Source of the DNA: a virus
Length of the DNA: 25,594 nucleotides
Reading direction: 5' to 3' (one strand)
IMG/VR virus record: IMGVR_UViG_3300034374_004769
Coordinates: 1 to 25,594 of that record
Numbering within the stretch: position 1 is the stretch's first letter; every line of letters begins with the position of its first letter. The translations under genes were made by a program, and so were the position numbers. A model generated the notes under the pieces. That model worked only from the letters and a program-made list of their open reading frames with translations, was not told the DNA's origin and did no database searches. Positions 2,794 to 22,734 of the stretch are shown here, one piece after another.

Positions 2794-2949
2794 TTATTGT
2801 GCGGGTACTGCTAGCTTGTCAAGCGCTTTCTCGTAGCGTTTAAGCAGTTCTTCTTGATAAGTTTTAGGCAACTCATCAGTTATAAGAATCTGCAAACACG
2901 TTTTGAAGAACTCCTCGTCGGTCAATTGCGTAGGTTGAATTGCGTACAT
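2794..2949 (-). CDS. Small hypothetical protein (51 aa)
   Basis: A short ORF between the helix-turn-helix gene and the primase-helicase gene. Of two in-frame ATGs (2961 and 2949), 2949 is chosen because a GGAGAG ribosome-binding site lies a few bases before it; the first ATG overlaps that site. The product is charged and predicted helical (an LTDEEFFKTCLQIL segment, then a Lys/Glu-rich helix). It has no recognisable domain. The first 28 bp overlap the end of the upstream gene in another frame, and the primase-helicase start lies 15 bp after its stop, so translation is probably coupled. Function unknown. Confidence 0.6.
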   Translation of the reverse strand: MYAIQPTQLTDEEFFKTCLQILITDELPKTYQEELLKRYEKALDKLAVPAQ

Positions 2950-3203
2950 ATTTCTCTCCATGCGTCTTCGGTTTGGCTCACCTTCTTTAGTGTGTCGATG
3001 ATCGTCGTGACGCGATCTTTGTACGCTGAGGTTACTTCTGTTGAGCCAGTGAACCAGTTATAAACGGTTTGTCGGGTAGCCCCTGTTGCCATAGCAATGC
3101 GCTTAACAGATATATCTCTGTACATGGCCCACTTGGCAAGTTCAGTACCAAGTGTCTTGGGGGCGTTATTGATGGTGTTTCTAGTTTTGTCTGAGTAGGG
3201 CAT
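2922..3203 (-). CDS. Helix-turn-helix DNA-binding protein, Cro/CI-like
   Basis: The 93-residue product contains the segment ISVKRIAMATGATRQTVYNW, with the spacing of a helix-turn-helix (ELAKWA ... ISVKRIAMATG - ATRQTVYNWF), followed by a helical C-terminus. Known Cro/CI-family folds of this size bind DNA as dimers and repress or switch phage promoters; that role here is inference. The start at 3203 has no good SD. A GTG at 3218 is an alternative, preceded by GAGGGG but buried in a hairpin. The gene lies between the single-strand-binding-like gene and the primase-helicase, so it may regulate replication genes or act elsewhere in the genome. Confidence 0.7.
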   Translation of the reverse strand: MPYSDKTRNTINNAPKTLGTELAKWAMYRDISVKRIAMATGATRQTVYNWFTGSTEVTSAYKDRVTTIIDTLKKVSQTEDAWREICTQFNLRN

Positions 3204-3212
3204 AGGATTGAA

Positions 3213-3235
3213 GGGGTGCACCTTGCGGTGCCCCC
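3213..3235 (-). promoter_or_regulatory. GNRA-loop hairpin before the HTH gene
   Basis: On the - strand, GCACC and GGTGC pair around a GCAA loop (a GNRA-type tetraloop), and GGGG/CCCC extend the stem past a bulged A. No U-tract follows, so it is not a typical terminator. It lies between the stop of the upstream gene and the ATG of the HTH gene and includes an alternative GTG start. It could limit translation of the regulator or protect an mRNA end; this is inference. Confidence 0.4.
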
Positions 3236-10690: not shown

Positions 10691-11032
10691 TTACCTATAT
10701 TGTTTTGTTAAACGCCAAACAGGTTGAGAACGGGCATGACTCCTACTATCTTTACTTGGAAGAAAATCGCCGGTTCTAATAATCATTTTTTTCTTGCTCA
10801 TGTCAAGAGCGACCGCGCCCCAAGCGTTTGGAGATGGCGGCGCACGTAACCCGCAAGTAACCGCATATTTTCTTACATCTTCAAACAAAGCACCGTTTAC
10901 TCCTACGGTCTTAAAGTATTTAACAGCCAAGGTAATTGCTACCTCATGCCAATTTGCACCAGCATTTTCAAGAGCCTTTTTGGTGCCTTCATCTCGCAAA
11001 GTAATTCCAAGTTCAAGTTCTTTATGCTTCAT
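10691..11032 (-). CDS. Hypothetical phage protein, possible winged-helix-like C-terminus
   Basis: The 113-residue protein starts at ATG 11032 after a near-perfect AGGAGGTGCGAA site. The segment FEDVRKYAVTCGLRAPPSPNAW followed by AVALDMSKKKMIIRTGDFLPS and a basic end ending PVWRLTKQ resembles small phage proteins I have seen annotated only as hypothetical. The helix-turn-strand look suggests a nucleic-acid-binding fold, but this is a guess. It overlaps the preceding gene by 4 bp. Confidence 0.7.
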   Translation of the reverse strand: MKHKELELGITLRDEGTKKALENAGANWHEVAITLAVKYFKTVGVNGALFEDVRKYAVTCGLRAPPSPNAWGAVALDMSKKKMIIRTGDFLPSKDSRSHARSQPVWRLTKQYR

Positions 11033-11295
11033 TTCGCACCTCCTAAATTAAATGGGTTGCTACAAAACTTACCCCAATCAACGTGTGGGTTCATCTTCGG
11101 CTTCGCATACTTCTGCGTCTTGAGTAGTTCTTCCAACGGCATGTTAATTAAAAACTTCGACGGCATCCCAGGCTTGGGGTAGTTCAGCTTAGCCGCTCGG
11201 TTTTTCTTAACAAGTCGAGACATACGTTGAATGGCACTCTTACGATTGACCTGTAGGAAAGCCGCAACTTGGTCGATAGTCACTTCCTCTTTCAT
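11029..11295 (-). CDS. Small HTH-like protein (88 aa)
   Basis: Start ATG 11295 is taken over a longer frame because its A-T-G shares bases with the stop of the zinc-ribbon gene (ATGA) and an AAGGAG lies ten bases upstream. The N-terminus EEVTIDQVAAFLQVNRKSAIQRMSRLVKKN has helix-turn-helix spacing: a helix, a turn near NRKS and a recognition-like helix rich in Arg/Lys. It probably binds DNA. The C-terminus ends in a Pro/Lys/Asn-rich tail. Whether it regulates transcription or is a structural DNA-binding protein cannot be told. Confidence 0.65.
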   Translation of the reverse strand: MKEEVTIDQVAAFLQVNRKSAIQRMSRLVKKNRAAKLNYPKPGMPSKFLINMPLEELLKTQKYAKPKMNPHVDWGKFCSNPFNLGGAK

Positions 11296-11468
11296 GTGAT
11301 CTGCACTCCTTCCTCTGGAATGACAACATCTTCGGCAGGCATCTCGACAGTCCATATCAAATAGGCGCATGACCTGCATTGTCTGCGCCGCTTGATCCAT
11401 CGAGGTTGCTCGTCAATGACTCTCGTTTCAAGAACTTCAGTCTTGTGATTGCATCTTAGGCATTTCAT
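11292..11468 (-). CDS. NrdR-like zinc-ribbon protein (58 aa)
   Basis: A short frame starts at ATG 11468 after AAGGAGACACTT. The product has MKCLRCNHKTEVLETR, then a basic stretch WIKRRRQCRSC. Cys3, Cys6, Cys31 and Cys34 form two CxxC knuckles spaced as in the N-terminal zinc ribbon of NrdR, the bacterial repressor of ribonucleotide reductase genes. The ATP-cone that NrdR needs for nucleotide sensing is missing, so it cannot be a complete NrdR. It overlaps the MarR-like gene by 32 bp and the next gene by 4 bp. A DNA- or RNA-binding adaptor is likely; the precise role is unknown. Confidence 0.75.
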   Translation of the reverse strand: MKCLRCNHKTEVLETRVIDEQPRWIKRRRQCRSCAYLIWTVEMPAEDVVIPEEGVQIT

Positions 11469-11766
11469 AAGTGTCTCCTTCCCAAGCGGTTAAGTACTCA
11501 AGACCCTTGTCGGTAATTTCAATCCAAGTCTTGCGTTGGTCACGATCTTCAGGGTGCTTGTGCTCACGCACAAACCCTTTGGCTTTTAGTACAGATAACT
11601 TCTTGTACGTAGTAGCTGGTGCAGAAATCTTATCTTTGTGGCACTCACGAACAAGAGACTCCGTGGGCGTAGGCCCACGGAAATCGCTCAGAACATCGAG
11701 CACACAATCAGCACCCATCTCCATGCCAAAGTCTTGGTGAAGCTGGTGTACGTAGATTGGCCTCAT
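11437..11766 (-). CDS. MarR-like winged-helix protein
   Basis: The 109-residue product starts at ATG 11766 five bases after AAGGAG; a GTG two codons earlier overlaps that spacing and is less likely. The core has a helix-turn-helix region (TPTESLVRECHKDKISAPATTYKKLSVLKAKGFV) and then a wing-like REHKHPEDRDQRKTWIEITDKG, the characteristic winged helix with a two-strand wing and terminal TDKG turn of MarR-type regulators. It lacks the long dimerisation helices of full MarR proteins (about 140 aa). It may control phage genes or counteract a host regulator. Confidence 0.75.
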   Translation of the reverse strand: MRPIYVHQLHQDFGMEMGADCVLDVLSDFRGPTPTESLVRECHKDKISAPATTYKKLSVLKAKGFVREHKHPEDRDQRKTWIEITDKGLEYLTAWEGDTYEMPKMQSQD

Positions 11767-12672: not shown

Positions 12673-13239
12673 TTAATACAAACGCAAAACTTCTACGTTT
12701 TTAGTCTTGGGGTTCATAGAGGTAGTGACAGAACCAGCGCCCCAAAGTGCGTAACCGGCGTTACACACCGCCGACTGCAACGAATACAGATTGATCTTAG
12801 TGCCGTCAGGGTGAGCGCTTGATATTTCAAGTAGCTCATTGACCTTCAGGTCTTTCATTTGAGGTCTAACGTACTCACGCAAGTACCCACGAGGCTTGTC
12901 TGCATAGGTAGCCTTTTTCTTTTTAGCAGGCTCCACAGCTTTGATTGAAGTCACCAAGCCATGCTTATAGCTCGTGGTACCGTCTTGACTTTCTACGATG
13001 TAGCTGAAACCAAGGTTGCGAAGAATAAGCAACGAGCCTTCTACTGTGCGCAGGTTGAGCGGCACACGAGCACGTGACCTCTTGCTTGGTAACTTACCCC
13101 TGTTCAATTTCTTTGGCTCGGCCTTTGGCGTTACCTCTGCCTCGGTGTGATCGGGGAATAAGGGAAGCTGATGGTCGTCTGCATTGGTTGCTTTCAAGTC
13201 AGCAAGAACGGCGGCGAGTCGGTCTGTGTATGCTTTCAT
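12673..13239 (-). CDS. Hypothetical basic protein (188 aa)
   Basis: The protein begins at ATG 13239 after AAGGAGATTCACC. It has an N-terminal helix, a Pro/Lys/Arg-rich linker (residues 37-60), a middle region with GSLLILRNLGFSYIVES, and a C-terminal part with LKVNELLEISSAHPDG and NAGYALWGAGSV. The basic linker would suit nucleic-acid or acidic-partner binding. No known family is recognised. It sits between the helical protein and the VWA protein, so it is probably a member of the same functional cassette. Confidence 0.7.
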   Translation of the reverse strand: MKAYTDRLAAVLADLKATNADDHQLPLFPDHTEAEVTPKAEPKKLNRGKLPSKRSRARVPLNLRTVEGSLLILRNLGFSYIVESQDGTTSYKHGLVTSIKAVEPAKKKKATYADKPRGYLREYVRPQMKDLKVNELLEISSAHPDGTKINLYSLQSAVCNAGYALWGAGSVTTSMNPKTKNVEVLRLY

Positions 13240-13257: not shown

Positions 13258-14511
13258 TTAAGAATAAATACGCAAGGTTTTGCCATGCGCAGGTTTGAAG
13301 TGGTCGTTGTTAACAACGCCCCACAGTTCGTTGCCACACGCAGGTGTGGGGCAAGCGTCGAGATAACCGTCAGTCAACCAGATAGCACCTGCCGGTTTGT
13401 ATTGTTTAGATTGAACGTAGTCGATGACACATTGAGGCGAAGTGCCACCACCACCCTGAGGTGCGAGTTGCGTAGCGATCTGAGCGTACTCACCTTCTTT
13501 GAACGTCTGCTCACCGCACACCTCTGAGTCCCACCAAACGATGCGAACAAGTTTGGGGTTGGCTTGCTGACAGATGTTGGCGATCTCACCGAACACTACT
13601 GGATAGTCACCATGCATGGAGCCAGAGGTGTCGCAGTAAATATGCAACTCGTCAACAGCAACGTCGAAGTGTGACGGCATGAGTATGCCAAGTGGTAACA
13701 ACCTACGGTTGGGCGGGTTGAAGCGAGAGTGCTCATCGCCAGCGCAGATTTCCTGAACCCAGCTACGCAACGCCTCACGCCAGTTTGTGTTGCGCTTGTG
13801 CGCAAGACCAGACAGCGGATTGTTGGCAGACGTTCTACCAGCGTTACGAGCGATACGCTTCTGCACCATCTCGCCGTGGATCAACGCTTCACGCACTTGC
13901 TTAGACACCGCCTCTTTGTCGGTGCCTTCTGAGGCTTGCATGTGTTTGTCAAGCGTCTTGGGTAGTCCGTTGCCAGACGCCTCGTCATCACCACCACCGC
14001 TACCTTCTTTCTTGCCATTACCACCAGGGGGAGGCGGCGGCATAGTGCGGAGTAAGTCTTGCAGTACGTCAACGAACGAGCGGTTGTAATACTTGGGGTC
14101 GAGCAATGGCTCGGGGTCATCGGGGTACTCAATGAACTTGTGCTCGGGGTCAGTCTGTTCAATGAACGCATTGACAACATAGTCCATCGCCACGTTGGAA
14201 AGGTCAGGGTACTTCTTGCAAATGTCCATGTAGTCGGTGCAATGACCCAAGGCTTTGTGACCGCCCTCGTGTAGCTTGACGAAGCGTAACTGCTTACGAG
14301 TGAGTGACATTACAAAGTCAGCACCGTAGTACTCGTCAAGGCCATTGGTACCTGCTGTTGGTAGATCAGTCACAACGTGAGTCTGACCCATTGTGACGAT
14401 GCCGCACATGACGCTGAAGTCGATGTGATCCATTATGTCGATGGTGACAGCGGCGATGCGCTGGCGTGGGGTCATCAAGTCCCACGTTGATTGAGCTTGT
14501 GTTTTAGCCAT
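13258..14511 (-). CDS. VWA-like metallopeptidase (DUF2201 type)
   Basis: The 417-residue protein joins two parts. The N-terminal part carries HEGGH at 81-85 (KLHEGGHKALGH), an HExxH zinc motif, as in the putative metallopeptidase domain of DUF2201. The centre has a Pro/Gly linker (158-182). The C-terminal part is a von Willebrand A-type domain with a MIDAS metal site: DTSGS at 294-298, the Thr in GGGGTSPQ (about 357) and the Asp in LTDG (381). VWA proteins of this kind act with a MoxR ATPase, here the adjacent gene, to remodel or mature target complexes. Start ATG 14511 follows AAAGGAGAGTCAATC. The target in the phage cycle is unknown. Confidence 0.9.
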   Translation of the reverse strand: MAKTQAQSTWDLMTPRQRIAAVTIDIMDHIDFSVMCGIVTMGQTHVVTDLPTAGTNGLDEYYGADFVMSLTRKQLRFVKLHEGGHKALGHCTDYMDICKKYPDLSNVAMDYVVNAFIEQTDPEHKFIEYPDDPEPLLDPKYYNRSFVDVLQDLLRTMPPPPPGGNGKKEGSGGGDDEASGNGLPKTLDKHMQASEGTDKEAVSKQVREALIHGEMVQKRIARNAGRTSANNPLSGLAHKRNTNWREALRSWVQEICAGDEHSRFNPPNRRLLPLGILMPSHFDVAVDELHIYCDTSGSMHGDYPVVFGEIANICQQANPKLVRIVWWDSEVCGEQTFKEGEYAQIATQLAPQGGGGTSPQCVIDYVQSKQYKPAGAIWLTDGYLDACPTPACGNELWGVVNNDHFKPAHGKTLRIYS

Positions 14512-14536
14512 GATTGACTCTCCTTTGTTTTGTTAA

Positions 14537-15691
14537 TCAAACTTTGAAATAGATGCGATTGTCGGCAAGCATCTTTGCGTACTCGGCGATGGTAAGAAAG
14601 TACTGAGCAGTAGAAGTCTCTGACACCCGTCGAACAAAGAGACTCTGAAGCTCAGGCTCCAAGCGGTTGACGTAAGTGACGTAGGCTTGCGCCTCATCAC
14701 GGTCACGTGTCTGCCCAATCATCTTGAGTACGAGAACCTGCTGAGCAATCTTGTTGCGTGGTAAGTCAGCGGTGTTGGGGTTGGCCTTGATGGAACTAAG
14801 GCTTGGCAACTGCTGACCGAACTTGATGTAAGACAGAATCTTGGCGGCGTAAACTTCACCCACCGTGCCAGCCAGTGCTGACTCAAGCGTCTTGTCATCG
14901 AACGCACCAAGCTCGTACGCATCGAGAATGTCAGACGCCGCATGCAACGAACGAAGCGAAGCGTAAGCAGTCTGAGGTGTCAGCGCATGAGGGTTGAAGA
15001 TCGACGGGTTGTCTTTCTCCAAGTTGACGCCGTGAAACTTGCCGCCTTCCTCGTAGTCCAAGAACGAGTCGAACACCTCGGGGTGCTCATCGAGACACGC
15101 CATCAGCATAGCGTTCATGCCGTTGGGTATGGCGAAGTCGTTGAAGTACTCCTCTTTGGTAGCCTTGCGCATCTTGACTTTGATAAGTCGGTTGCCAAGG
15201 TGAGCTTGCAACATATCGCCCAGACCCTCGTTCGCTAGGTTGGTCGCCATGATGACGATTGAACCATCGGGCGCATAGAACACACCGGCCCTGCGCTCGT
15301 AGCCGATAGGTGCGATCATGTTCTTAACGTACTGAGGAATCTTGGCGATCTCGTCGAACATAATCAGCGTAGGCTTGGCGCCGTTGACGCCACGCTGGTT
15401 GGTACGACTGATGCCAAGGCGCTCGTTGGGTAGCTCGGTAGACACGCCACGCTCACGGTCAATGTCAGGCATGAACAGCGAACCGTCAGACAACTGAGTG
15501 CAGTCGATAGGTGCTGGCTTGATGAAGTCAGCAAAGTCGGGGTCAGCACACAGCGCCTTGTGAATCGAGGTCTTGCCGATACCGTTCTCGCCCATCACAA
15601 GTACCGTGCGCTTGTGGCCCACGCCTTTGATGAGGCTGACGATTTGCTTGAACGAAAGAAAGTCGGATTGATTGGTTGATTGATTAGCCAT
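14537..15691 (-). CDS. MoxR/CobS-type AAA+ ATPase
   Basis: The 384-residue ATPase has Walker A GENGIGKT (34-41), Walker B LIMFDE (109-114), a sensor-1 ATN (149-151) and an Arg in GNRLIKV (168). The PIGYERRAGVFYAPDGS stretch before sensor 1 is typical of the MoxR/CobS branch, ring-shaped chaperone-like ATPases. Such proteins use ATP to insert cofactors or activate partners through a VWA protein; the neighbour downstream has one. Start ATG 15691 follows AAGGAGAATCATC, the same leader as on several cassette genes, suggesting matched expression. The substrate is not known in phages. Confidence 0.92.
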   Translation of the reverse strand: MANQSTNQSDFLSFKQIVSLIKGVGHKRTVLVMGENGIGKTSIHKALCADPDFADFIKPAPIDCTQLSDGSLFMPDIDRERGVSTELPNERLGISRTNQRGVNGAKPTLIMFDEIAKIPQYVKNMIAPIGYERRAGVFYAPDGSIVIMATNLANEGLGDMLQAHLGNRLIKVKMRKATKEEYFNDFAIPNGMNAMLMACLDEHPEVFDSFLDYEEGGKFHGVNLEKDNPSIFNPHALTPQTAYASLRSLHAASDILDAYELGAFDDKTLESALAGTVGEVYAAKILSYIKFGQQLPSLSSIKANPNTADLPRNKIAQQVLVLKMIGQTRDRDEAQAYVTYVNRLEPELQSLFVRRVSETSTAQYFLTIAEYAKMLADNRIYFKV

Positions 15692-17289: not shown

Positions 17290-17300
17290 GATGATTCTCC

Positions 17301-17747
17301 TTATCGAGTTATCTGTACTTCAAGCCCGTCAATAGATTCATTAATCATCACCTGAATCTTATCTTCGAGGTTGCTGTCACTCAGCACATCACGAGCAATC
17401 GCATCGGTGTCAACGTACTCAGCAACGTCATGCTCGCTGAGGTCAACCCTTGAGTTGATGTAGTCATCGTCAACGAGGTACTCAACCTTGTCACTGACCA
17501 TTGTTTCCACCATCTCATCGAGGCGCCCGACAAAGTTAGCTTCAAACCATTCGCCATACCTCTGCTCATTGAAAGCAATACCCGCCAACTCAACGGCGTT
17601 CTCACGCAAGCCCAGCACCTCTGCACGCAGTTGGTTTATCTCTGAGCGCAATGCGGCAAGCGTGTCATTGGTGAGGTCGATACTGCTGGTTGATACACCA
17701 AGTGCTTCGGCATAAGCTTCAGCGTACTCATTATTTTCGTTAGTCAT
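17301..17747 (-). CDS. Acidic coiled-coil hypothetical protein
   Basis: The 148-residue product starts at ATG 17747 after AAGGAGAGTCAA. It is strongly acidic. Residues 27-55 form a heptad-like helix (LAALRSEINQLRAEVLGLREN), and the C-terminal half is full of Asp/Glu with repeated D-V or D-A steps. This could mimic nucleic acid charge, as some phage anti-restriction proteins do, but there is no specific evidence. A palindromic repeat lies 20 bp upstream of its start, between it and the small membrane gene. Confidence 0.7.
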   Translation of the reverse strand: MTNENNEYAEAYAEALGVSTSSIDLTNDTLAALRSEINQLRAEVLGLRENAVELAGIAFNEQRYGEWFEANFVGRLDEMVETMVSDKVEYLVDDDYINSRVDLSEHDVAEYVDTDAIARDVLSDSNLEDKIQVMINESIDGLEVQITR

Positions 17748-17767
17748 TTGACTCTCCTTATTAAAAT

Positions 17768-17790
17768 GTTTGCGACACCATGTCGCAAAC
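17768..17790. repeat. Palindromic repeat, copy 1
   Basis: Two perfect 10-bp arms, GTTTGCGACA and TGTCGCAAAC, flank a CCA centre. On the - strand the stem begins at the last base of the TAG stop of the small membrane gene and is followed by ATTTTAATAAGG, only a weak T-run. It belongs to a six-copy family in this region and may act as an RNA hairpin or protein-binding site. Confidence 0.9.
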
Positions 17791-17918
17791 TATCCAAACA
17801 GCGCAAACACCAGCGCCAACGTAAACCAGAAGATGAGCATTGCTACTGATGCAAGCACCATGACCACAGCAAACTCTTTCCAGTTTTCACAACAGAAAAA
17901 CTCAAGCAACCATTTCAT
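17790..17918 (-). CDS. Very small membrane protein (42 aa)
   Basis: The short frame starts at ATG 17918 after AAGGAGAAACAAA. It begins MKWLLEFFCCENWKEF and then has about 23 hydrophobic residues (AVVMVLASVAMLIFWF and on), ending with no charged tail. This is a single-pass membrane peptide. Size and makeup would suit a pinholin-like or membrane-disrupting early peptide, but the location far from the lysis genes gives no support. It overlaps the preceding gene by 17 bp and ends exactly on the first palindromic repeat. Confidence 0.65.
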   Translation of the reverse strand: MKWLLEFFCCENWKEFAVVMVLASVAMLIFWFTLALVFALFG

Positions 17919-18126
17919 TTTGTTTCTCCTTCTCGTTGATAAGATGCTTTATCGCCGCAACTAAGTCGTTGCGCCTCTTGCGTAACTCCAACACCTGCCA
18001 AGGTTGCACTTGCTCAGGCTCGATATGCCTGAGGCACATCTTGAGTAGCTTCAAGTAATTCTCTTCCTTTCGCTCATGCGCTTCATGTATTTGCTTGAGC
18101 GTTTCTGACAACTGTTGTGGTTTCAT
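17902..18126 (-). CDS. Small helical, charged protein (74 aa)
   Basis: ATG 18126 lies seven bases after AAGGAG and shares the TGATG junction with the upstream gene. The product is almost entirely helical with many Glu, Lys, Gln and Leu (LKQIHEAHERKEENYLKLL), likely a coiled coil. No domain is recognised. Its stop overlaps the tiny membrane gene. Confidence 0.65.
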   Translation of the reverse strand: MKPQQLSETLKQIHEAHERKEENYLKLLKMCLRHIEPEQVQPWQVLELRKRRNDLVAAIKHLINEKEKQNEMVA

Positions 18127-18302
18127 CACTCGACTCCTTTCATTGTGTACTCGTAGGCGTAGTAGTTGCTGTCACCTTTGCCTTGGTTAAACTCGGGGTT
18201 GTTCATGATTGACGCCCCGATGTTCTGCATCGCATCGAACAACTGATACTGCCAAATGCTCGATGACTCCACAGTTATGGTCACGTTCACTTCAATCTTC
18301 AT
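18126..18302 (-). CDS. Small beta-rich hypothetical protein (58 aa)
   Basis: The frame is longer upstream, but ATG 18302 is preceded by GAGGAGGACGAAG, the best local ribosome-binding site. The start MKIEVNVTITVESSS has alternating residues of a beta strand, then a helix (WQYQLFDAMQNIGASI) and an Asn/Tyr-rich end. A small alpha/beta fold is likely; function unknown. It overlaps the preceding gene by 11 bp and ends in the TGATG junction with the next gene. Confidence 0.6.
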   Translation of the reverse strand: MKIEVNVTITVESSSIWQYQLFDAMQNIGASIMNNPEFNQGKGDSNYYAYEYTMKGVE

Positions 18303-18429
18303 CTTCGTCCTCCTCTTCAACTTCAAAGCGTATGTACTGCACCCCTTCAAAAGATTCGCCGTAGTCAAAGCGCAAACCTGTATCAAGCTCTAGCTTGTCC
18401 AACAACTCACCAAGTTCTGTTCTAGTCAT
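18292..18429 (-). CDS. Small acidic protein (45 aa)
   Basis: ATG 18429 follows AAAGGGGGTG and overlaps the previous stop (ATGA). The product starts MTRTELGELLDKLELDTGL, has a short strand near VQYIRFEV and ends in a run of Glu/Asp. The acidic end is encoded by the same bases that provide the GAGGAGG site for the next gene. Function unknown. Confidence 0.6.
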   Translation of the reverse strand: MTRTELGELLDKLELDTGLRFDYGESFEGVQYIRFEVEEEDEDED

Positions 18430-18734
18430 TTCACACCCCCTTTCAAGTAATCAGCGATTGTCCACACGGGTTGGTGTTCACCATCGAACCCAAACGCTTT
18501 CCATTTGTACAAAGCAAACGGCACGCACTGCGACAACTGAGCATTTCTGTTCTCCCACATGGCATCAAGCAAACGCCAACGCCAGTTCTTGCGAACACGC
18601 TCCTCGTGTTCTTGCGCACATGTCCAAGGTTGTGGGCGCTTTATATGCCAGCGGCATACCATTCGAGTTAGGGGCCAAGCACCTTTAGGCTTGGTACGAT
18701 TGTTTTGTAGCGGCAATACTTTCTGTAGTTTCAT
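18426..18734 (-). CDS. Trp/Arg-rich hypothetical protein (102 aa)
   Basis: ATG 18734 follows AAGGAGAACTGCA. The product is basic and unusually rich in Trp, with two spaced cysteines and several His (CRWHIKRPQPWTCAQEHEERVRK), which might bind a metal. It then has a helix (NWRWRLLDAMWENRN) and ends with AFGFDGEHQPVWTIADYLKGG. No family is recognised. It is linked to both neighbours by 4-bp overlaps. Confidence 0.68.
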   Translation of the reverse strand: MKLQKVLPLQNNRTKPKGAWPLTRMVCRWHIKRPQPWTCAQEHEERVRKNWRWRLLDAMWENRNAQLSQCVPFALYKWKAFGFDGEHQPVWTIADYLKGGVK

Positions 18735-18913
18735 TGCAGTTCTCCTTCTTCCAAATACAACGCTGAGTTCAGATACTCTTTTGTATCTTCAGGCTCTCCA
18801 TTCCTATCCCTGAGATAGGCTTCGGCTTTCTCTTTGTCAGTAAACACTAGCCCTGTCGGATGCCCTTCGTAATACGGGTCATCGCATGGTCTACACACAA
18901 TCCACACTTTCAT
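18731..18913 (-). CDS. Small hypothetical protein (60 aa)
   Basis: ATG 18913 follows a strong AAAGGAGGTGTGAA site. The product starts MKVWIVCRPCDDP and contains FTDKEKAEAYLRDRN, a strand-helix pattern seen in tiny phage proteins that carry one alpha/beta unit. CRPC could be a redox or metal pair but lacks a second pair. ATGA overlaps link it to the genes on both sides. Function unknown. Confidence 0.68.
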   Translation of the reverse strand: MKVWIVCRPCDDPYYEGHPTGLVFTDKEKAEAYLRDRNGEPEDTKEYLNSALYLEEGELQ

Positions 18914-19362
18914 TTCACACCTCCTTTGGCTGGCGTTACCTCGCCTTCTAAATAAATATCTGTGTCGTTGTCTGTGGCTTCATCTTCAAATAAGTCTCCA
19001 GCCGCTACCTTGTCCCAACCCATGTCGATAGCGTCTTGCTCACTCGCCGCTTCGACTGTTATGTAGCGGTACTCTTTAGTCACCACGCACAACTCGTAAG
19101 TCTTCATGCCATCACTCTCCTTTCTTAACGGCTCGCTTTCTTGTTTAACCCACTTCAAACCAAACACGCTTGGAAAGAACTCACTAATACTTGGGAACGA
19201 GTCAGCGTCTTTCACCCACACACGCCCAGTACTTGATGGCTTGTGTGGGGGCATACCCCCCATGAGTTTGGTTGGCTCGCCACGAAAGCTCGTAATGCTT
19301 GCGCCCACAGGCACCGGCTCGTTTGTTTCTTCATTCACTAACACCCAGTCTCGTATCTTCAT
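18910..19362 (-). CDS. Two-part hypothetical protein with internal start at 19107
   Basis: The 150-residue frame begins at ATG 19362 after GAGGTGATGTG. The first part (to about residue 85) has IRDWVLVNEETNEPVPVGASI, a GGMPPHKPSSTGRVWV turn region and FFPSVFGLKW; I have seen this as a stand-alone small phage protein. The second part starts at Met86 (base 19107), MKTYELCVVTKEYRYITVEA, which also looks like a complete small protein (65 aa) and has its own AAGGAG nine bases before. So the gene may give both a fusion and a free C-terminal product. No function is known for either part. Confidence 0.7.
   Translation of the reverse strand: MKIRDWVLVNEETNEPVPVGASITSFRGEPTKLMGGMPPHKPSSTGRVWVKDADSFPSISEFFPSVFGLKWVKQESEPLRKESDGMKTYELCVVTKEYRYITVEAASEQDAIDMGWDKVAAGDLFEDEATDNDTDIYLEGEVTPAKGGVK
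19107..19122 (-). promoter_or_regulatory. Internal ribosome-binding site and in-frame start
   Basis: AAGGAG at 19117-19122 lies nine bases before an in-frame ATG (19105-19107) in the middle of the two-part gene. This is as good as the sites used for whole genes nearby, and supports separate translation of the C-terminal 65 residues. Confidence 0.5.
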
Positions 19363-19366
19363 CACA

Positions 19367-19552
19367 TCACCTCGCTTTCTTCAAAAGAACACACTCGGAC
19401 TTCAGGCGTGACCAAGCCACACTCGCCTCGGCATCGGTCTTGTACCTGTTTGCGACAGTCTGTCGCAAAGGTTTACCTTCAAATGGTTTAGCCTCTACTG
19501 TCTTTAAAAGAGCGCATTGCTCTTGCGTTAGGGCTTTGTACTTGTTAGTCAT
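19367..19552 (-). CDS. Small basic protein containing a palindromic repeat in its coding sequence
   Basis: ATG 19552 follows AAGGAGAATCAACC. The 61-residue product is helical and basic (KYKALTQEQCALLKTVEAK ... TDAEASVAWSRLKSECVLLKKAR). The part PLRQTVANR, about residues 28-36, is encoded by palindrome copy 2, so the repeat has been accommodated in the reading frame. Its stop is built into the ribosome-binding site of the next gene. Function unknown. Confidence 0.62.
   Translation of the reverse strand: MTNKYKALTQEQCALLKTVEAKPFEGKPLRQTVANRYKTDAEASVAWSRLKSECVLLKKAR
19448..19470. repeat. Palindromic repeat, copy 2 (inside a gene)
   Basis: TTTGCGACA and TGTCGCAAA flank a GTC centre; the outermost G:G pair is mismatched. 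This copy lies entirely in the coding sequence of the 61-residue protein. Confidence 0.88.
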
Positions 19553-19609
19553 GGTTGATTCTCCTTAAAAAAGTACTGCGTTAAACAACTGACTCCCTCT
19601 GTACGGGTG

Positions 19610-20128
19610 TCAATCGTGTTTGCTACACCTTGTAGCAAACTTCTTTGAGAGAAGATCTTCCCAGCGCATGGGTACTTTCTTCCCTTCATTCTTTAGGCGC
19701 TTGAATATTTCATTCGCACGCTTTAATTCGTCTAGCCGCACAAGGTCAGGCGCACGCATGGCACGCTTTTTCTCCCTGTCCAGTTGTTTAGCCATGTTGG
19801 TGTAAGTCTCGGCGAACATGGCTTGCCTGTTCTTTAATATGGTCATGCGCTTACTGTCGAGCGCAGACTTACGCATACGCTTCAGAGTCTCGCTGATTTC
19901 CAACTCGGTCTTGCCCTCGTTGTGCATACGCTTGCGTGCCTCGGCAGGCGAGAGTGACATCGTGGGTCTGGTGTGGGTTCTTGCACACTCGTTGCACACA
20001 GCGCTCTCGTACTCAAGGCGTATTCGCATGGCTGGGTTCTTAGTCCACGCACGAGATTGTGCGAGTGATGCCCTGCGTTTGAACGCATCGGGCGGTTTTT
20101 GCTGGTTGCATTGGTCACACAGTTTCAT
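19610..20128 (-). CDS. Four-cysteine zinc-finger-like basic protein
   Basis: ATG 20128 is chosen over a longer frame because GAGAGG lies just before it and the Cys-rich region starts at once. The 172-residue product has Cys4 and Cys7 (MKLCDQC), then Cys45 and Cys48 (CNEC), a likely zinc site. The rest is a long basic helical region with many Lys/Arg (KRMRKSALDSKRMTILKNRQ). A nucleic-acid-binding role is probable. It is the first gene downstream, on this strand, of the repeat-rich region at 20.15-20.48 kb, so it could bind there, but that is a guess. Its last codons contain palindrome copy 3. Confidence 0.68.
   Translation of the reverse strand: MKLCDQCNQQKPPDAFKRRASLAQSRAWTKNPAMRIRLEYESAVCNECARTHTRPTMSLSPAEARKRMHNEGKTELEISETLKRMRKSALDSKRMTILKNRQAMFAETYTNMAKQLDREKKRAMRAPDLVRLDELKRANEIFKRLKNEGKKVPMRWEDLLSKKFATRCSKHD
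19618..19640. repeat. Palindromic repeat, copy 3 (paired base change)
   Basis: GTTTGCTACA and TGTAGCAAAC flank a CCT centre. Compared with the other copies, one G is T in the left arm and the matching C is A in the right arm, so pairing is kept. It is within the last codons of the zinc-finger-like gene. Confidence 0.88.
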
Positions 20129-20151
20129 AAGATACCTCTCGATGTGATTGT

Positions 20152-20482
20152 AAAAAGTGTCCACTTTTTCCCTGCGATGTCCACTTTTATCTCAACTGGA
20201 CACTAAAGTGGGTCAGCAGAGAACGAGTAAACATGCGGGGTTTGGGTAGTAGTGTCCCAACTATAATAGCTTTTTTGGAAACAAGCACGCCGGACAAACA
20301 CAAAGTAAAAAGTGTCCAGAAGTCTAGAAGCCCTATAATAATAATAATAAATAATAAATAATATATTATAGTTAGGACGCTAAAGTGGACAGCGCCAATA
20401 CTGGCGCGGAGTTTGAGTGACCCACTTGTGTGTCCAGCCCAGACAAAAGTGGACTATTGTCCAGATTTGACACAAAAGTGGG
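20152..20482. repeat. Cluster of AAAGTG/GTCCA boxes with AT-rich core; possible origin or control region
   Basis: This gene-free stretch has eight exact GTCCA/TGGAC cores (starting near 20159, 20179, 20197, 20314, 20386, 20432, 20450, 20459) and a near one (20253), most next to AAAGTG or CACTTT, in both orientations. At 20152-20169 two boxes form a perfect inverted repeat, AAAAAGTG-TC-CACTTTTT. A core of (AAT)-type repeats lies at 20333-20370, and a GCGCCA/TGGCGC hairpin at 20392-20407. Repeated boxes plus an easily melted core are typical of replication origins, and also of multi-operator promoters. Neither is proven. Confidence 0.75.
20365..20370 (-). promoter_or_regulatory. Possible leftward -10 box (TATAAT)
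   Basis: On the - strand TATAAT appears at the edge of the AT-rich core, with a GTCCA box near the -35 position rather than a TTGACA. It would drive the zinc-finger-like gene and those further left, perhaps under control of whatever binds the boxes. The absent -35 makes this uncertain. Confidence 0.35.
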
Positions 20483-20510
20483 TATATCACCAACACGTTG
20501 TACACAAGCG

Positions 20511-20531
20511 TTTGCGACAGGTTGTCGCAAA
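20511..20531. repeat. Palindromic repeat, copy 4
   Basis: TTTGCGACA and TGTCGCAAA flank a GGT centre. On the - strand it begins two bases after the TGA of the 51-residue gene, between it and the repeat-rich region. Confidence 0.9.
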
Positions 20532-20533
20532 GC

Positions 20534-20689
20534 TCAGTCGTCTTTCCCAAGGCGATACTCAAGGGCAGACTTCCACTCACGCTTTTGTACCTGCTCACGC
20601 TTGTATCGGGCGCCATGCTTGCGTGGCTTGGCGGTCTTGGCGTCTTGCTTGGCTTTGAACTGCACGAGGTCTTTGTAGGTTTTAGACAT
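20534..20689 (-). CDS. Very basic small protein (51 aa)
   Basis: ATG 20689 follows AGGAGATTCAACC. The product begins MSKTYKDLVQFKAKQDAK and is over a quarter Lys and Arg, with an ending SALEYRLGKDD. Such short basic proteins often bind nucleic acid, but no motif is recognised. Stop and palindrome copy 4 are adjacent. It lies just upstream (in transcription) of the box cluster. Confidence 0.62.
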   Translation of the reverse strand: MSKTYKDLVQFKAKQDAKTAKPRKHGARYKREQVQKREWKSALEYRLGKDD

Positions 20690-20713
20690 GGTTGAATCTC
20701 CTAAGTAGGTTGA

Positions 20714-20851
20714 TTAGATGTACTGCTGGTCTTGCCGCTTGAGCAGACGCCAAGCAACGAAGATTGACCACAGGCTATAACGCCGGTACAGACAATACGC
20801 TAGGCCATGGGCGCGAAGTGAGTCACGAACGTAGAACACGTTGGTACGCAT
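20714..20851 (-). CDS. Small basic protein, possible membrane segment (45 aa)
   Basis: ATG 20851 follows AAGGAGACTTTC, ruling out the longer frame. The product begins MRTNVFYVRDSLRAHGLAYCL and has a partly hydrophobic stretch (YSLWSIFVAWRLL) that might associate with a membrane, ending KRQDQQYI. No family is recognised. Confidence 0.6.
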   Translation of the reverse strand: MRTNVFYVRDSLRAHGLAYCLYRRYSLWSIFVAWRLLKRQDQQYI

Positions 20852-20861
20852 GAAAGTCTCC

Positions 20862-21017
20862 TTAGGCTTTGTAGGATTGAAGAAGCTCGATACCACTCCA
20901 CAGTTGAATGAAGTGGAATTTGCTGGTGAGCGCATGGAACAGCGTGATGGCGTCATAGTAGGTGTTGGCTTTGTACTCACGAATAACGCCGGCATCTTCG
21001 ATACGGATTAAGAACAT
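20862..21017 (-). CDS. Small hypothetical protein (51 aa)
   Basis: ATG 21017 follows GGAGAATCATC, directly after the U-tract of the terminator at 21030-21055. The product begins MFLIRIEDAGVIREYKANTYYDA and continues with helical and aromatic residues (ITLFHALTSKFHFIQLW). A single alpha/beta unit is likely. Its stop (TAA) is followed immediately by the next ribosome-binding site. Because it lies just past a terminator, its level should depend on readthrough. Confidence 0.62.
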   Translation of the reverse strand: MFLIRIEDAGVIREYKANTYYDAITLFHALTSKFHFIQLWSGIELLQSYKA

Positions 21018-21029
21018 GATGATTCTCCA

Positions 21030-21055
21030 AAAGAAAAGGGGCGCCGAAGCGCCCC
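21030..21055 (-). terminator. Rho-independent terminator inside the leftward operon
   Basis: On the - strand a 7-bp GC-rich stem, GGGGCGC/GCGCCCC, closes on a TTCG loop and is followed by TTTTCTTTT. This is a textbook terminator. The next gene's ribosome-binding site starts right after the U-tract, so it probably reduces expression of the genes to its left or needs antitermination. Confidence 0.85.
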
Positions 21056-21062
21056 AAGGTTG

Positions 21063-21083
21063 TTTGCGACAGGTTGTCGCAAA
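21063..21083. repeat. Palindromic repeat, copy 5
   Basis: TTTGCGACA and TGTCGCAAA flank a GGT centre. On the - strand it starts three bases after the TAA of the 136-residue gene and lies just before the terminator stem. Confidence 0.9.
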
Positions 21084-21086
21084 GGT

Positions 21087-21497
21087 TTAGGCCCGACCAA
21101 TGTATTTCATGAGCCGGTCAATCTCGGCTTTCTTGAGTTTGAGAACCGCATCGCCCAGCTTCTGCCACTCGGGTTTGGCCTCGGTCTTGCGTGCGCCGCC
21201 TCGGTTGCTTTTCTTGATGTTGTGAAACTTGGCAATACAGCGTTGCCATTTGCGCTCGGCGGCGTCGTGACGATTGGCTGATGTTGATTCCTCGCTGGTG
21301 TAGAAGTGGTAAGCACCATTCTCGCCTGTGGCAAAGAAGCAATCGTATTGCCTCGCGTGTTCTTCTGCGAGTTGTGCAATGAGCGAATCAGGCAAGAAGC
21401 TTCCCCCTCTGAGTTCTTTCTCCAGCAAACTGTCTAGTTTCAAACTTGTTGCAAGTAACTCGCCGTAAAGCGCAACGATTTGTGATTTGTTAGTCAT
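21087..21497 (-). CDS. Hypothetical protein, first gene of the leftward operon (136 aa)
   Basis: ATG 21497 follows GAAGGAGAGTCAATC; the longer frame passes through palindrome copy 6 and is rejected. The product has an N-terminal helix (SQIVALYGELLATSLKLDSLLEKEL), a central part with YDCFFATGENGAYHFYTSEES, and a basic C-terminal helix. Cysteines are few. First-transcribed phage genes often act against host functions, but there is nothing specific here. It is transcribed from the promoter at 21589-21597 and followed by palindrome copy 5 and a strong terminator. Confidence 0.72.
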   Translation of the reverse strand: MTNKSQIVALYGELLATSLKLDSLLEKELRGGSFLPDSLIAQLAEEHARQYDCFFATGENGAYHFYTSEESTSANRHDAAERKWQRCIAKFHNIKKSNRGGARKTEAKPEWQKLGDAVLKLKKAEIDRLMKYIGRA

Positions 21498-21528
21498 GAT
21501 TGACTCTCCTTCAGGTTGTGGTTGAAGC

Positions 21529-21551
21529 GTTTGCGACACCATGTCGCAAAC
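21529..21551. repeat. Palindromic repeat, copy 6 (operon leader)
   Basis: Perfect 10-bp arms GTTTGCGACA and TGTCGCAAAC flank a CCA centre. This copy lies in the leader between the promoter and the first gene of the leftward operon. Confidence 0.9.
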
Positions 21552-21588
21552 ACGTTGTTGGCTAGGCGTTCTCCCAACCAACACTTAC

Positions 21589-21597
21589 ATTATAACA
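21589..21597 (-). promoter_or_regulatory. Leftward promoter with extended -10
   Basis: The - strand reads TGTTATAAT, a perfect extended -10 box (TGnTATAAT). No good TTGACA lies 16-18 bases upstream, as is usual for extended -10 promoters. It is well placed to start the leftward operon about 90 bases before its first ATG. Confidence 0.6.
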
Positions 21598-21648
21598 TAA
21601 TAGGTATTTAGCCTCTGAGCCTGCCGATTGGTTTGGCGGTTTTGCAGA

Positions 21649-21669
21649 CCCCACCACCCCCCACCCCCC
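21649..21669 (-). other. G-rich tract (- strand), possible G-quadruplex
   Basis: The + strand has C4, C2, C6 and C6 runs separated by single A bases. The - strand therefore carries G-runs close enough to fold as a G-quadruplex. It is upstream of the leftward promoter in the intergenic region. Fold and function are inference. Confidence 0.4.
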
Positions 21670-21729
21670 AAGAATATTGCGGCGATGCAGGCGGAGGCAA
21701 TAACAGTGTTTCGCAGTTACAAACCACAG

Positions 21730-21985
21730 TTGTCAAATTTCTAGTAAAAAATTCAAATCACCTTTGTCAAATTTGATAACATAACTGCGGGGGCCGGGTC
21801 GGCGCGGCGACCTTAAACAGCCCGTACCTGAAGAGCATGGCTGACAGTGACAAGCTCAAAGGAAACGCCAGAACTTCTCCCTTTCTGGTATCGGCCCCCA
21901 CCCTTCTCGCACGCATAAATAAACAAGAGGAGGGAACGCTATGCTAAAAATATTTGTAAAAATCAAAATAGTTATTGTCAAATCT
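21730..21985. repeat. Three TTGTCAAAT boxes in the divergent intergenic region
   Basis: TTGTCAAATTT occurs at 21730-21740 and 21764-21774, and TTGTCAAATCT at 21975-21985. The second contains a 10-bp palindrome, TCAAATTTGA. They flank the foldable element and could be operators or -35-like sites for rightward transcription. Confidence 0.5.
21789..21899 (+). ncRNA. Foldable element closed by GGGGGCCG/CGGCCCCC, possible structured RNA
   Basis: GGGGGCCG (21789-21796) and CGGCCCCC (21892-21899) pair perfectly, enclosing GGTCG/CGACC and CCAGAA/TTCTGG inner hairpins. The remaining gene-free stretch 21598-22065 has no other clear gene. It may be a leader RNA, structured DNA or a packaging-site element. 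It is not recognised as a known RNA family. Confidence 0.35.
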
Positions 21986-21988
21986 TAG
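21941..21988 (+). CDS. Possible 15-residue leader peptide
   Basis: ATG follows a strong GAGGAGGGAACGCT site. The frame reads MLKIFVKIKIVIVKS and stops, a short hydrophobic and basic peptide. It lies between the foldable element and the terminase genes and might act through its translation. The SD is the main support; there is no comparative evidence. Confidence 0.25.
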   Translation: MLKIFVKIKIVIVKS

Positions 21989-22000
21989 ACACAGTTAGAT

Positions 22001-22027
22001 AAAAAGAACCCCCGCAGTTGGCGGGGG
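22001..22027 (-). terminator. Terminator-like hairpin on the - strand before the terminase genes
   Basis: Read on the - strand, CCCCCGC and GCGGGGG pair around CAACT and are followed by TTCTTTTT, a good rho-independent terminator. No - strand gene lies to its right, so it may stop antisense transcription from the structural region into the divergent control region. Read on the + strand there is no U-tract. Confidence 0.6.
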
Positions 22028-22034
22028 CGGGGAA

Positions 22035-22060
22035 AGGGCCTGTGGCCCTACGAGGAGAAT
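22035..22060 (+). promoter_or_regulatory. Hairpin and strong ribosome-binding site of the terminase small-subunit gene
   Basis: AGGGCC and GGCCCT pair around TGT (22035-22049), followed by GAGGAGAAT at 22052-22060. The latter matches the SD used by many genes here (GGAGAATC). Eight bases after GGAG the sequence is ATC, not ATG. This decides the start discussion for the next gene. Confidence 0.55.
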
Positions 22061-22065
22061 CAAAC

Positions 22066-22734
22066 ATCACTGCTCTTGCGAGCAGGCAGAAGCAAGTATA
22101 CACTCGTGCCTACAGAGCACAAGCTTTGCTTACGGGAGGAATGACCCGCGTGTTAGAACATTTGGTACAAGGTAACTATGATCCGGCGATATACAACTCG
22201 CCGATGGACGGCTTTTTGCCTTTGGAAAAGGCAGATGCTAATGAGCTACTTGAAGCGCAGATCAATACAACCGACTGGTTGACTGAACTTGGCGCCAAAC
22301 CAGATGACGATGTTGTGGCTGATGCACAAGACACACAAGCACGAAATGCTTTCCATGCGTTGACCGCAGACCCCGAAACGGCAAAGCAGGCACTGACGCA
22401 AATTACCCTACCCCCCGCCATTCAAAGATTAGTCAGCATGCTGACTGTTTACGACTGGTCGTTTGTTGAGCACGCCAAGCAGTTGCGGGGTATGGCGGTG
22501 GCTAAGATTCTTGAAGAGACAGACCACCCTGACGCACGGATACGCCTAAAAGCTCTTGAGATGCTAGGTAAAGTCACAGAGGTGGGGCTGTTCACAGACC
22601 GTATCGAGATCAAAAAGACTGAGCTAAGTGACCACGAGCTTGACGAGAAGATTAAGCAAAAGCTAGCGGCTATACAAAACACGGTTGAGGTTGACGCAAC
22701 TGAGGTCGAAACAATCGACGATGAACAGGATTAG
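22066..22734 (+). CDS. terS: Terminase small subunit (start codon anomalous)
   Basis: The small subunit recognises phage DNA and guides the large subunit in packaging. The assignment rests mainly on position directly before the large-subunit gene, overlapping it by 14 bp, and on a helical protein of suitable length (about 220 aa) with an acidic C-terminus. The best start by SD is ATC at 22066 (product ITALASRQKQVYTRAYRAQALL). Canonical alternatives are TTG 22018 and GTG 22042, both upstream of the SD and in hairpins, or ATG 22141, which loses 25 residues. A sequence error or true near-cognate start is possible. Residues around ILEETDHPDARIRLKALEMLGKV form a helical repeat seen in some TerS proteins. 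Confidence 0.75.
   Translation: MTALASRQKQVYTRAYRAQALLTGGMTRVLEHLVQGNYDPAIYNSPMDGFLPLEKADANELLEAQINTTDWLTELGAKPDDDVVADAQDTQARNAFHALTADPETAKQALTQITLPPAIQRLVSMLTVYDWSFVEHAKQLRGMAVAKILEETDHPDARIRLKALEMLGKVTEVGLFTDRIEIKKTELSDHELDEKIKQKLAAIQNTVEVDATEVETIDDEQD

Follow-up and report, generated by a model that had tools for sequence, protein, structure and literature searches.

Genome-specific palindromes in the early operon of a freshwater phage group as putative operators of a dimeric regulator

The viral record IMGVR_UViG_3300034374_004769 was analysed over its whole length of 25,594 nucleotides, which is referred to herein as the window. In this 25.6-kb phage record, the early genes run leftward from approximately 21.5 kb, and the late genes, encoding terminase and structural proteins, run rightward from approximately 22.1 kb. 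Six near-identical palindromes lie in the early operon, in its leader and in and between its genes, and in related phages the same places are held by palindromes of other sequences. In the present study, we describe these elements and the evidence that they may be operators, at which a dimeric protein would control early transcription.

Six palindromes in the leftward early operon

A search of the window with TTTGCGACANNNTGTCGCAAA, allowing up to 3 mismatches, returned exactly six matches (17769, 19449, 19619, 20511, 21063 and 21530), compared with a mean of 0.03 matches in shuffled sequence, and none of 100 shuffles reached six. Each copy is 21 bp long, and together the copies span 17769-21550. 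The arms measure 9 bp (10 bp counting a flanking G-C pair) and enclose a 3-nt centre; they read TTTGCGACA and TGTCGCAAA in five of the six copies and TTTGCTACA and TGTAGCAAA in the copy at 19619, a variant whose two mismatches compensate each other. The centre is free to vary among the six copies, and the arms are constant. Two records near-identical to the window (35.6 and 34.9 kb, 99.9% identity) were available; the 35.6-kb record, G001, has the same six palindromes, and no seventh copy was found elsewhere in the window or in that record. The window had no match in Rfam, and a near-match DNA search for the palindrome among annotated phages returned nothing. The features of the locus are as follows.

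17769-17789, palindrome 1 (TTTGCGACACCATGTCGCAAA), directly after the stop codon of a 42-amino-acid (aa) gene; the start codon of the 148-aa gene (17301-17747) follows after 21 nt
19449-19469, palindrome 2, in the middle of the 61-aa gene, 86 nt ahead of the next start codon
19619-19639, palindrome 3 (variant TTTGCTACACCTTGTAGCAAA), within the last codons of the 172-aa gene
20511-20531, palindrome 4, just past the stop codon of the 51-aa gene and upstream of a 350-nt noncoding region
21063-21083, palindrome 5, 3 nt past the stop codon of the 136-aa gene, with an intrinsic terminator next on the minus strand
21530-21550, palindrome 6, 32 nt ahead of the start codon of the first early gene, in its leader
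21038-21055, minus strand, intrinsic terminator (GGGGCGCTTCGGCGCCCC plus TTTTCTTTT) between palindrome 5 and the next gene
21087-21497, minus strand, first early gene, 136 aa, conserved, no function assigned
20534-20689, minus strand, conserved 51-aa basic protein
19610-20128, minus strand, conserved 172-aa protein with a CxxC...CNxC motif
19367-19552, minus strand, 61-aa gene holding palindrome 2
12673-13239, minus strand, fast-evolving 188-aa protein with a winged-helix-like C-terminal domain, a candidate DNA-binding partner

An earlier reading of these letters alone, the sequence-only reading, had reported six near-identical palindromes within 3.8 kb and none in the rest of the window, with the arms kept and the 3-nt centre varying, three copies near a stop codon, two in coding sequence and one in a leader. 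All of this is borne out; its starts at 17768, 19618 and 21529 denote the same sites and include one extra flanking G-C pair.

On the minus strand, which is the one transcribed, a stop codon lies 0-3 nt before each of the copies at 17769, 20511 and 21063. Start codons are close as well: 64% of 74 sites at 21 loci lie no more than 70 nt upstream of a Shine-Dalgarno (SD)-start pair, compared with 20% of random nearby positions, and the corresponding p-value of 2e-16 overstates independence because the loci are related. A scan of 17300-22700 for sigma-70-like promoters returned none, compared with 5.0 in shuffled sequences, and operators of sigma-70 promoters were ruled out on this ground. The earlier statement that the palindromes differ from ordinary terminators holds for five of the six, for which intrinsic terminators were rejected by a minus-strand scan for a GC-rich stem and a T-run; only the copy at 17768-17790 passes that scan. 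A terminator that is similar by eye follows the site orthologous to 21063 in six relatives (L129, L130, L133, L136, L137 and L157). Palindrome 2 lies inside the 61-aa gene, and the peptide encoded there shifts with the palindrome and the frame in relatives (LRQTVAN, LGQPVPN, FATGVAK and IGTSVPK). The palindrome is kept while the peptide changes, and therefore the constraint is on the nucleic acid.

Palindromes switched in place among related phages

A terminase search yielded 80 related loci. In the closest relatives (L129, L130, L133, L135, L136, L137 and L157), TTTGGGACA/TGTCCCAAA palindromes occur in the same layout, and the distances between sites are alike in the window, L129, L133 and L137. 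The place of palindrome 1 is occupied by TTTGGGACA arms in L133 (4014) and by TTTGCTACA arms in L129 (4900), and that of palindrome 3 by TTTGGGACA arms in L133 (5498). Between the site at 20511 and its counterpart at 8082 of L129, position 5 is altered in both arms, and the flanks are 90 and 95% identical. Of nine comparisons of the 40-bp flanks of switched sites, eight gave 68-95% identity, and only the left flank of 19619 fell below this range (47%). Both arms have been switched together, in place, and the copies within a genome mostly agree.

Approximately ten motif types were observed overall, each mostly uniform inside its genome, with 8-9-bp arms and centres of 1-5 nt over the relatives and the window. 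Lineages with a 2-nt centre carry TTTGGGACA (L142, L163, L185, L197 and L240), TTTGCGACA (L149 and L159) or TTTGC(A/T)ACA arms (L140, L134 and G017). Further arms are TTTGGCACA in L147, TTTGTGTGC in L131 (terminase approximately 95% identical), TTTGGGTGA in L153 and L165, TTGTGGACA in L146 and L166, and TGTGTGAC in L182, and TTGTAGAG (L187), TAGTGGAG (L193) and TTGTGCAGA (L196) are likely additional types. Three motifs occur already among phages whose terminases are approximately 95-97% identical (the window, L129 and L131). The exceptions to agreement within a genome are the distal copies of L129 (TTTGCTACA) and L137 (TATGCAACA), which look as if they were not yet converted. In whole records of 35.6, 56 and 65 kb, the sites are restricted to the early operon. 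No such palindrome family was found in HTVC027P (first 20.6 kb) or DSL-LC04 (first 50 kb), whose terminases are approximately 51-52% identical. The sequence-only reading had proposed a search of related phages for its palindrome pattern: the positions are indeed occupied there, but at nearly all copies by another sequence, the two arms having switched together. This genome-specific switching is the most informative feature of the system and was not visible to the earlier reader from the letters of the window.

Similar palindromes were also observed outside this layout. In the distant phage G015 (locus L435, 61.5-kb record), exact TTTGCGACA palindromes occur eight times, with a 2- or 3-nt centre. 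Several of them stand just ahead of the start codons of leftward genes, and the phage also has a gene that is ParB-like by eye. One TTTGCGACA-AAA/TTT-TGTCGCAAA palindrome is present in each of seven other viral contigs (L007, L008, L009, L011, L012, L017 and L018), with nearly identical 25-nt flanks. L336 has six copies resembling CTTTGGGACA..TGTCCCAAAG, one of which stands just before a gene that is BlaI-like by eye. The palindrome ACTTTGCGACANNNTGTCGCAAAGT recurs in many Lachnospiraceae genomes (bacterial contigs L020-L125), and from its narrow AC...GT context we judge it to be probably unrelated to the phage sites.

Operators compared with other explanations and known systems

Herein, we propose that the palindromes are operators placed between cistrons and bound by a dimeric DNA-binding protein that the phage itself probably encodes. 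This protein would control early transcription, and its specificity would turn over rapidly; we regard this as the probable explanation, with some reserve. Free centres and fixed arms fit a DNA operator. Among the functions suggested by the sequence-only reading, a site for a dimeric protein is the best supported, as both arms switch at orthologous positions, the centres vary and the mismatches appear to spare half-sites. The half-site mismatches in relatives are of all kinds, and many of them break an RNA stem yet leave plausible half-sites. We infer that a protein binds the sites, acts on the DNA, exerts repression and is encoded by the phage.

Several results weigh against this proposal. 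The length of the centre is 2 or 3 nt depending on the lineage, and both lengths occur together in the distant phage G015; such variation is not usual for a rigid dimer. No binding protein was found, and among the proteins compared none tracks the switch between CG arms (as in the window) and GG arms (as in L133) through a simple residue code. The TTTG..ACA group has ten transition mismatches, every one of them G-U on the transcribed strand and none A-C, as an RNA stem would allow; in this count, stray matches to other motifs were removed by hand, and the ten represent approximately eight independent events. This last result would suit RNA hairpins in a polycistronic early mRNA, upstream of whose ribosome-binding sites a phage RNA-binding protein might act or a nuclease cut, setting translation or half-life for each cistron. 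Ribosome-binding sites are close by, and the transcribed strand of all six copies forms a good hairpin (z -3.2 to -4.2), as is expected of any perfect palindrome. However, the copies at 19449 and 20511 do not lie near a ribosome-binding site, and the loops vary freely around stems of fixed sequence, whereas most sequence-specific RNA-binding sites show the opposite pattern. Outside the TTTG..ACA group, A-C is no rarer than G-U, nearly every copy in the TTTGCWACA phages has A-A or T-T in its stem, and with all groups pooled only approximately 15 of some 60 mismatched arm pairs, counted by hand, could pair as G-U; the 10:0 bias of the one group no longer looks significant once the others are added. 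Because of these mismatches, we conclude with moderate confidence that the conserved property is the dyad symmetry of the DNA rather than RNA pairing. The hairpin for mRNA processing suggested earlier is possible in view of the folding, and we do not favour it; we consider it rather unlikely.

It is improbable that the palindromes serve as promoter elements of some unusual transcription machinery specific to the phage, each starting the transcript of the gene behind it. Their location 10-50 nt ahead of SD-start pairs in a region free of sigma-70-like promoters would suit such a role, and T7-like promoter motifs are known to switch with their polymerase. The T7 and T3 polymerase promoters present one motif per genome before many genes, with few positions switching between relatives, and the N4 virion RNA polymerase promoters are small hairpins; unlike in those systems, no such polymerase was found in the relatives here. 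An N4-like virion polymerase appears unlikely: the giant protein of the relatives (2,575-2,721 aa; L399:9689-17851 and L408:3241-10965) carries an LPD38 domain and lacks the polymerase motif TxxGR. A PF00940 search gave no match, and none in control genomes either. Moreover, a transcript started at 21063 would run directly into the intrinsic terminator. Binding by a host factor, with lineages differing by host, is also quite improbable. The frequency of an identical 21-bp palindrome in Lachnospiraceae genomes suggests that cellular proteins of such specificity may exist, but the narrow AC...GT context of those copies is absent from the phages, and three motifs are found among phages with terminases approximately 95-97% identical. 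The small mobile palindrome suggested by the sequence-only reading, akin to repetitive extragenic palindromes (REP/REPIN) spreading through the early region, could account for several near-identical copies, two of them within genes. Such elements would vary in insertion position, whereas here the positions are orthologous and the flanks conserved across relatives, with the sequence altered in place; this origin was rejected as highly improbable.

Returning to operators, the nearest palindromic case is that of the Streptomyces phage phiC31. In this temperate phage, multiple short conserved inverted repeats (CIRs) lie in the gaps between early and essential genes and share one known repressor. 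The stoperators of cluster A mycobacteriophages such as L5 are 13-bp, asymmetric sites oriented with transcription, present in 20-30 copies per genome and bound by a monomeric immunity repressor (PMC6550527, PMC9283540). The palindromes resemble them as several non-promoter copies of one short site, located there in short intergenic gaps of lytic genes, and in having a genome-specific consensus that differs between related phages. In contrast, the present sites are symmetric, perfect palindromes with free centres, they number 5-6 and are confined to the early operon (35.6-65-kb records), and no repressor or integrase was found here. The extended start-associated sequences (ESAS) of cluster K mycobacteriophages, which are temperate actinophages, consist of imperfect 17-bp arms with a 4-13 nt spacer, an adjacent 13-bp start-associated sequence (SAS, GGGATAGGAGCCC) and SigA-like hexamers (PMC3203893, PMC11373665, PMC12699233). 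Both systems show inverted repeats upstream of the starts of some non-structural genes, at the same genes across genomes, with a genome-specific consensus and genome-specific bases at fixed repeat positions. The window palindromes differ in their 9-bp arms and 3-nt centre; in addition, SAS GGGATAGGAGCCC gave 3 matches at 3 mismatches against 3.4 expected, none near the sites, and SigA/sigma-70-like -35 and -10 hexamers gave no promoter-like site in 17300-22700.

With respect to the binding protein, no single residue separates CG from GG loci in the 172-, 136-, 51- and 61-aa proteins or the terminase small subunit, in a comparison of 3 CG with 7-11 GG loci, some from one record. The 51-aa protein was rejected as a specificity factor by sequence, being 96% identical between the window (CG) and L133 (GG), and within the 172-aa family the identity between L149 (CG) and L163 (GG) is 90%. 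Also rejected were a Cro-like helix-turn-helix (HTH) protein (2922-3221) and a MarR/PadR-like protein (11437-11766), whose recognition helices are nearly unchanged across motif types, and a small winged-helix-like protein (11029-11295), which has counterparts in some relatives and none found in G005. The best candidate, and a candidate only, may be the protein at 12673-13239. It is present in the related loci reaching that region, which few genomes cover, and is only 28-46% identical, compared with 59-85% for its neighbours. Its predicted structure is of high confidence at the C-terminus and poor as a whole (predicted local distance difference test, pLDDT, 72.7; predicted template modelling score, pTM, 0.41). 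Foldseek returned nothing significant for this model, and winged-helix domains were among the best rows of VIA-align with Z 5-8, a level that can reflect a common arrangement. Searches of eight records, possibly incomplete, revealed neither a tyrosine integrase nor a serine recombinase; classical lysogeny is therefore not expected, and a temperate phage repressor appears unlikely on the same basis.

Other features of the region were noted. The AT-rich 350-nt noncoding region upstream of the 172-aa gene (20150-20483) contains repeats of TGTCCACTTT/AAAGTGGACA, similar repeats stand ahead of the 172-aa homologue in L149 and L159, and the region might serve as an origin or as another regulatory site. 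Three TTGTCAAA repeats lie between the divergent early and late genes (21729-21983), and TTGTCAAA-NN-TTTGACAA palindromes occur near the terminase in L140, L255, L142, L143 and L163; this motif is constant where the early-operon palindrome switches, and the conserved Cro-like HTH protein is a possible partner. Adjoining genes at 13258-15691 encode an AAA ATPase and a DUF2201/VWA-like protein; they resemble a MoxR-VWA pair, and the phage group as a whole has kept them.

A proposed regulator and its changing sites

According to the mechanism that we propose, one dimeric regulator would bind the sites where one cistron of the leftward early operon gives way to the next, in its leader and before most early genes. 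The bound protein would block or modulate RNA polymerase at gene boundaries, in the style of a roadblock or stoperator, and would limit transcription across them; the outcome might be that early genes are turned off or that a relative infecting the same cell is silenced. Because the same protein would use every site, any shift in its specificity would drag all of them along, and each lineage would come to have its own palindrome. The system would then represent multi-site phage operators, which as such are already known, with an unusually fast concerted turnover. More tentatively, the palindrome set might constitute a recognition code: a resident phage would silence the early operon of a co-infecting relative that shares its code and would leave alone one whose code differs. 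This rather unlikely possibility would amount to superinfection immunity without lysogeny, exerted through a fast-evolving winged-helix regulator in apparently non-integrating freshwater phages, and the code would turn over faster than almost everything else in the genome.

A genome-specific short palindrome before early genes may serve as an annotation signature for phages, and the CG and GG arms in nearly identical context provide ready pairs for finding the protein and for probing immunity between phages. The concerted in-place change of 5-6 sites in approximately ten lineages would represent a natural record of a regulator and its sites changing specificity together.

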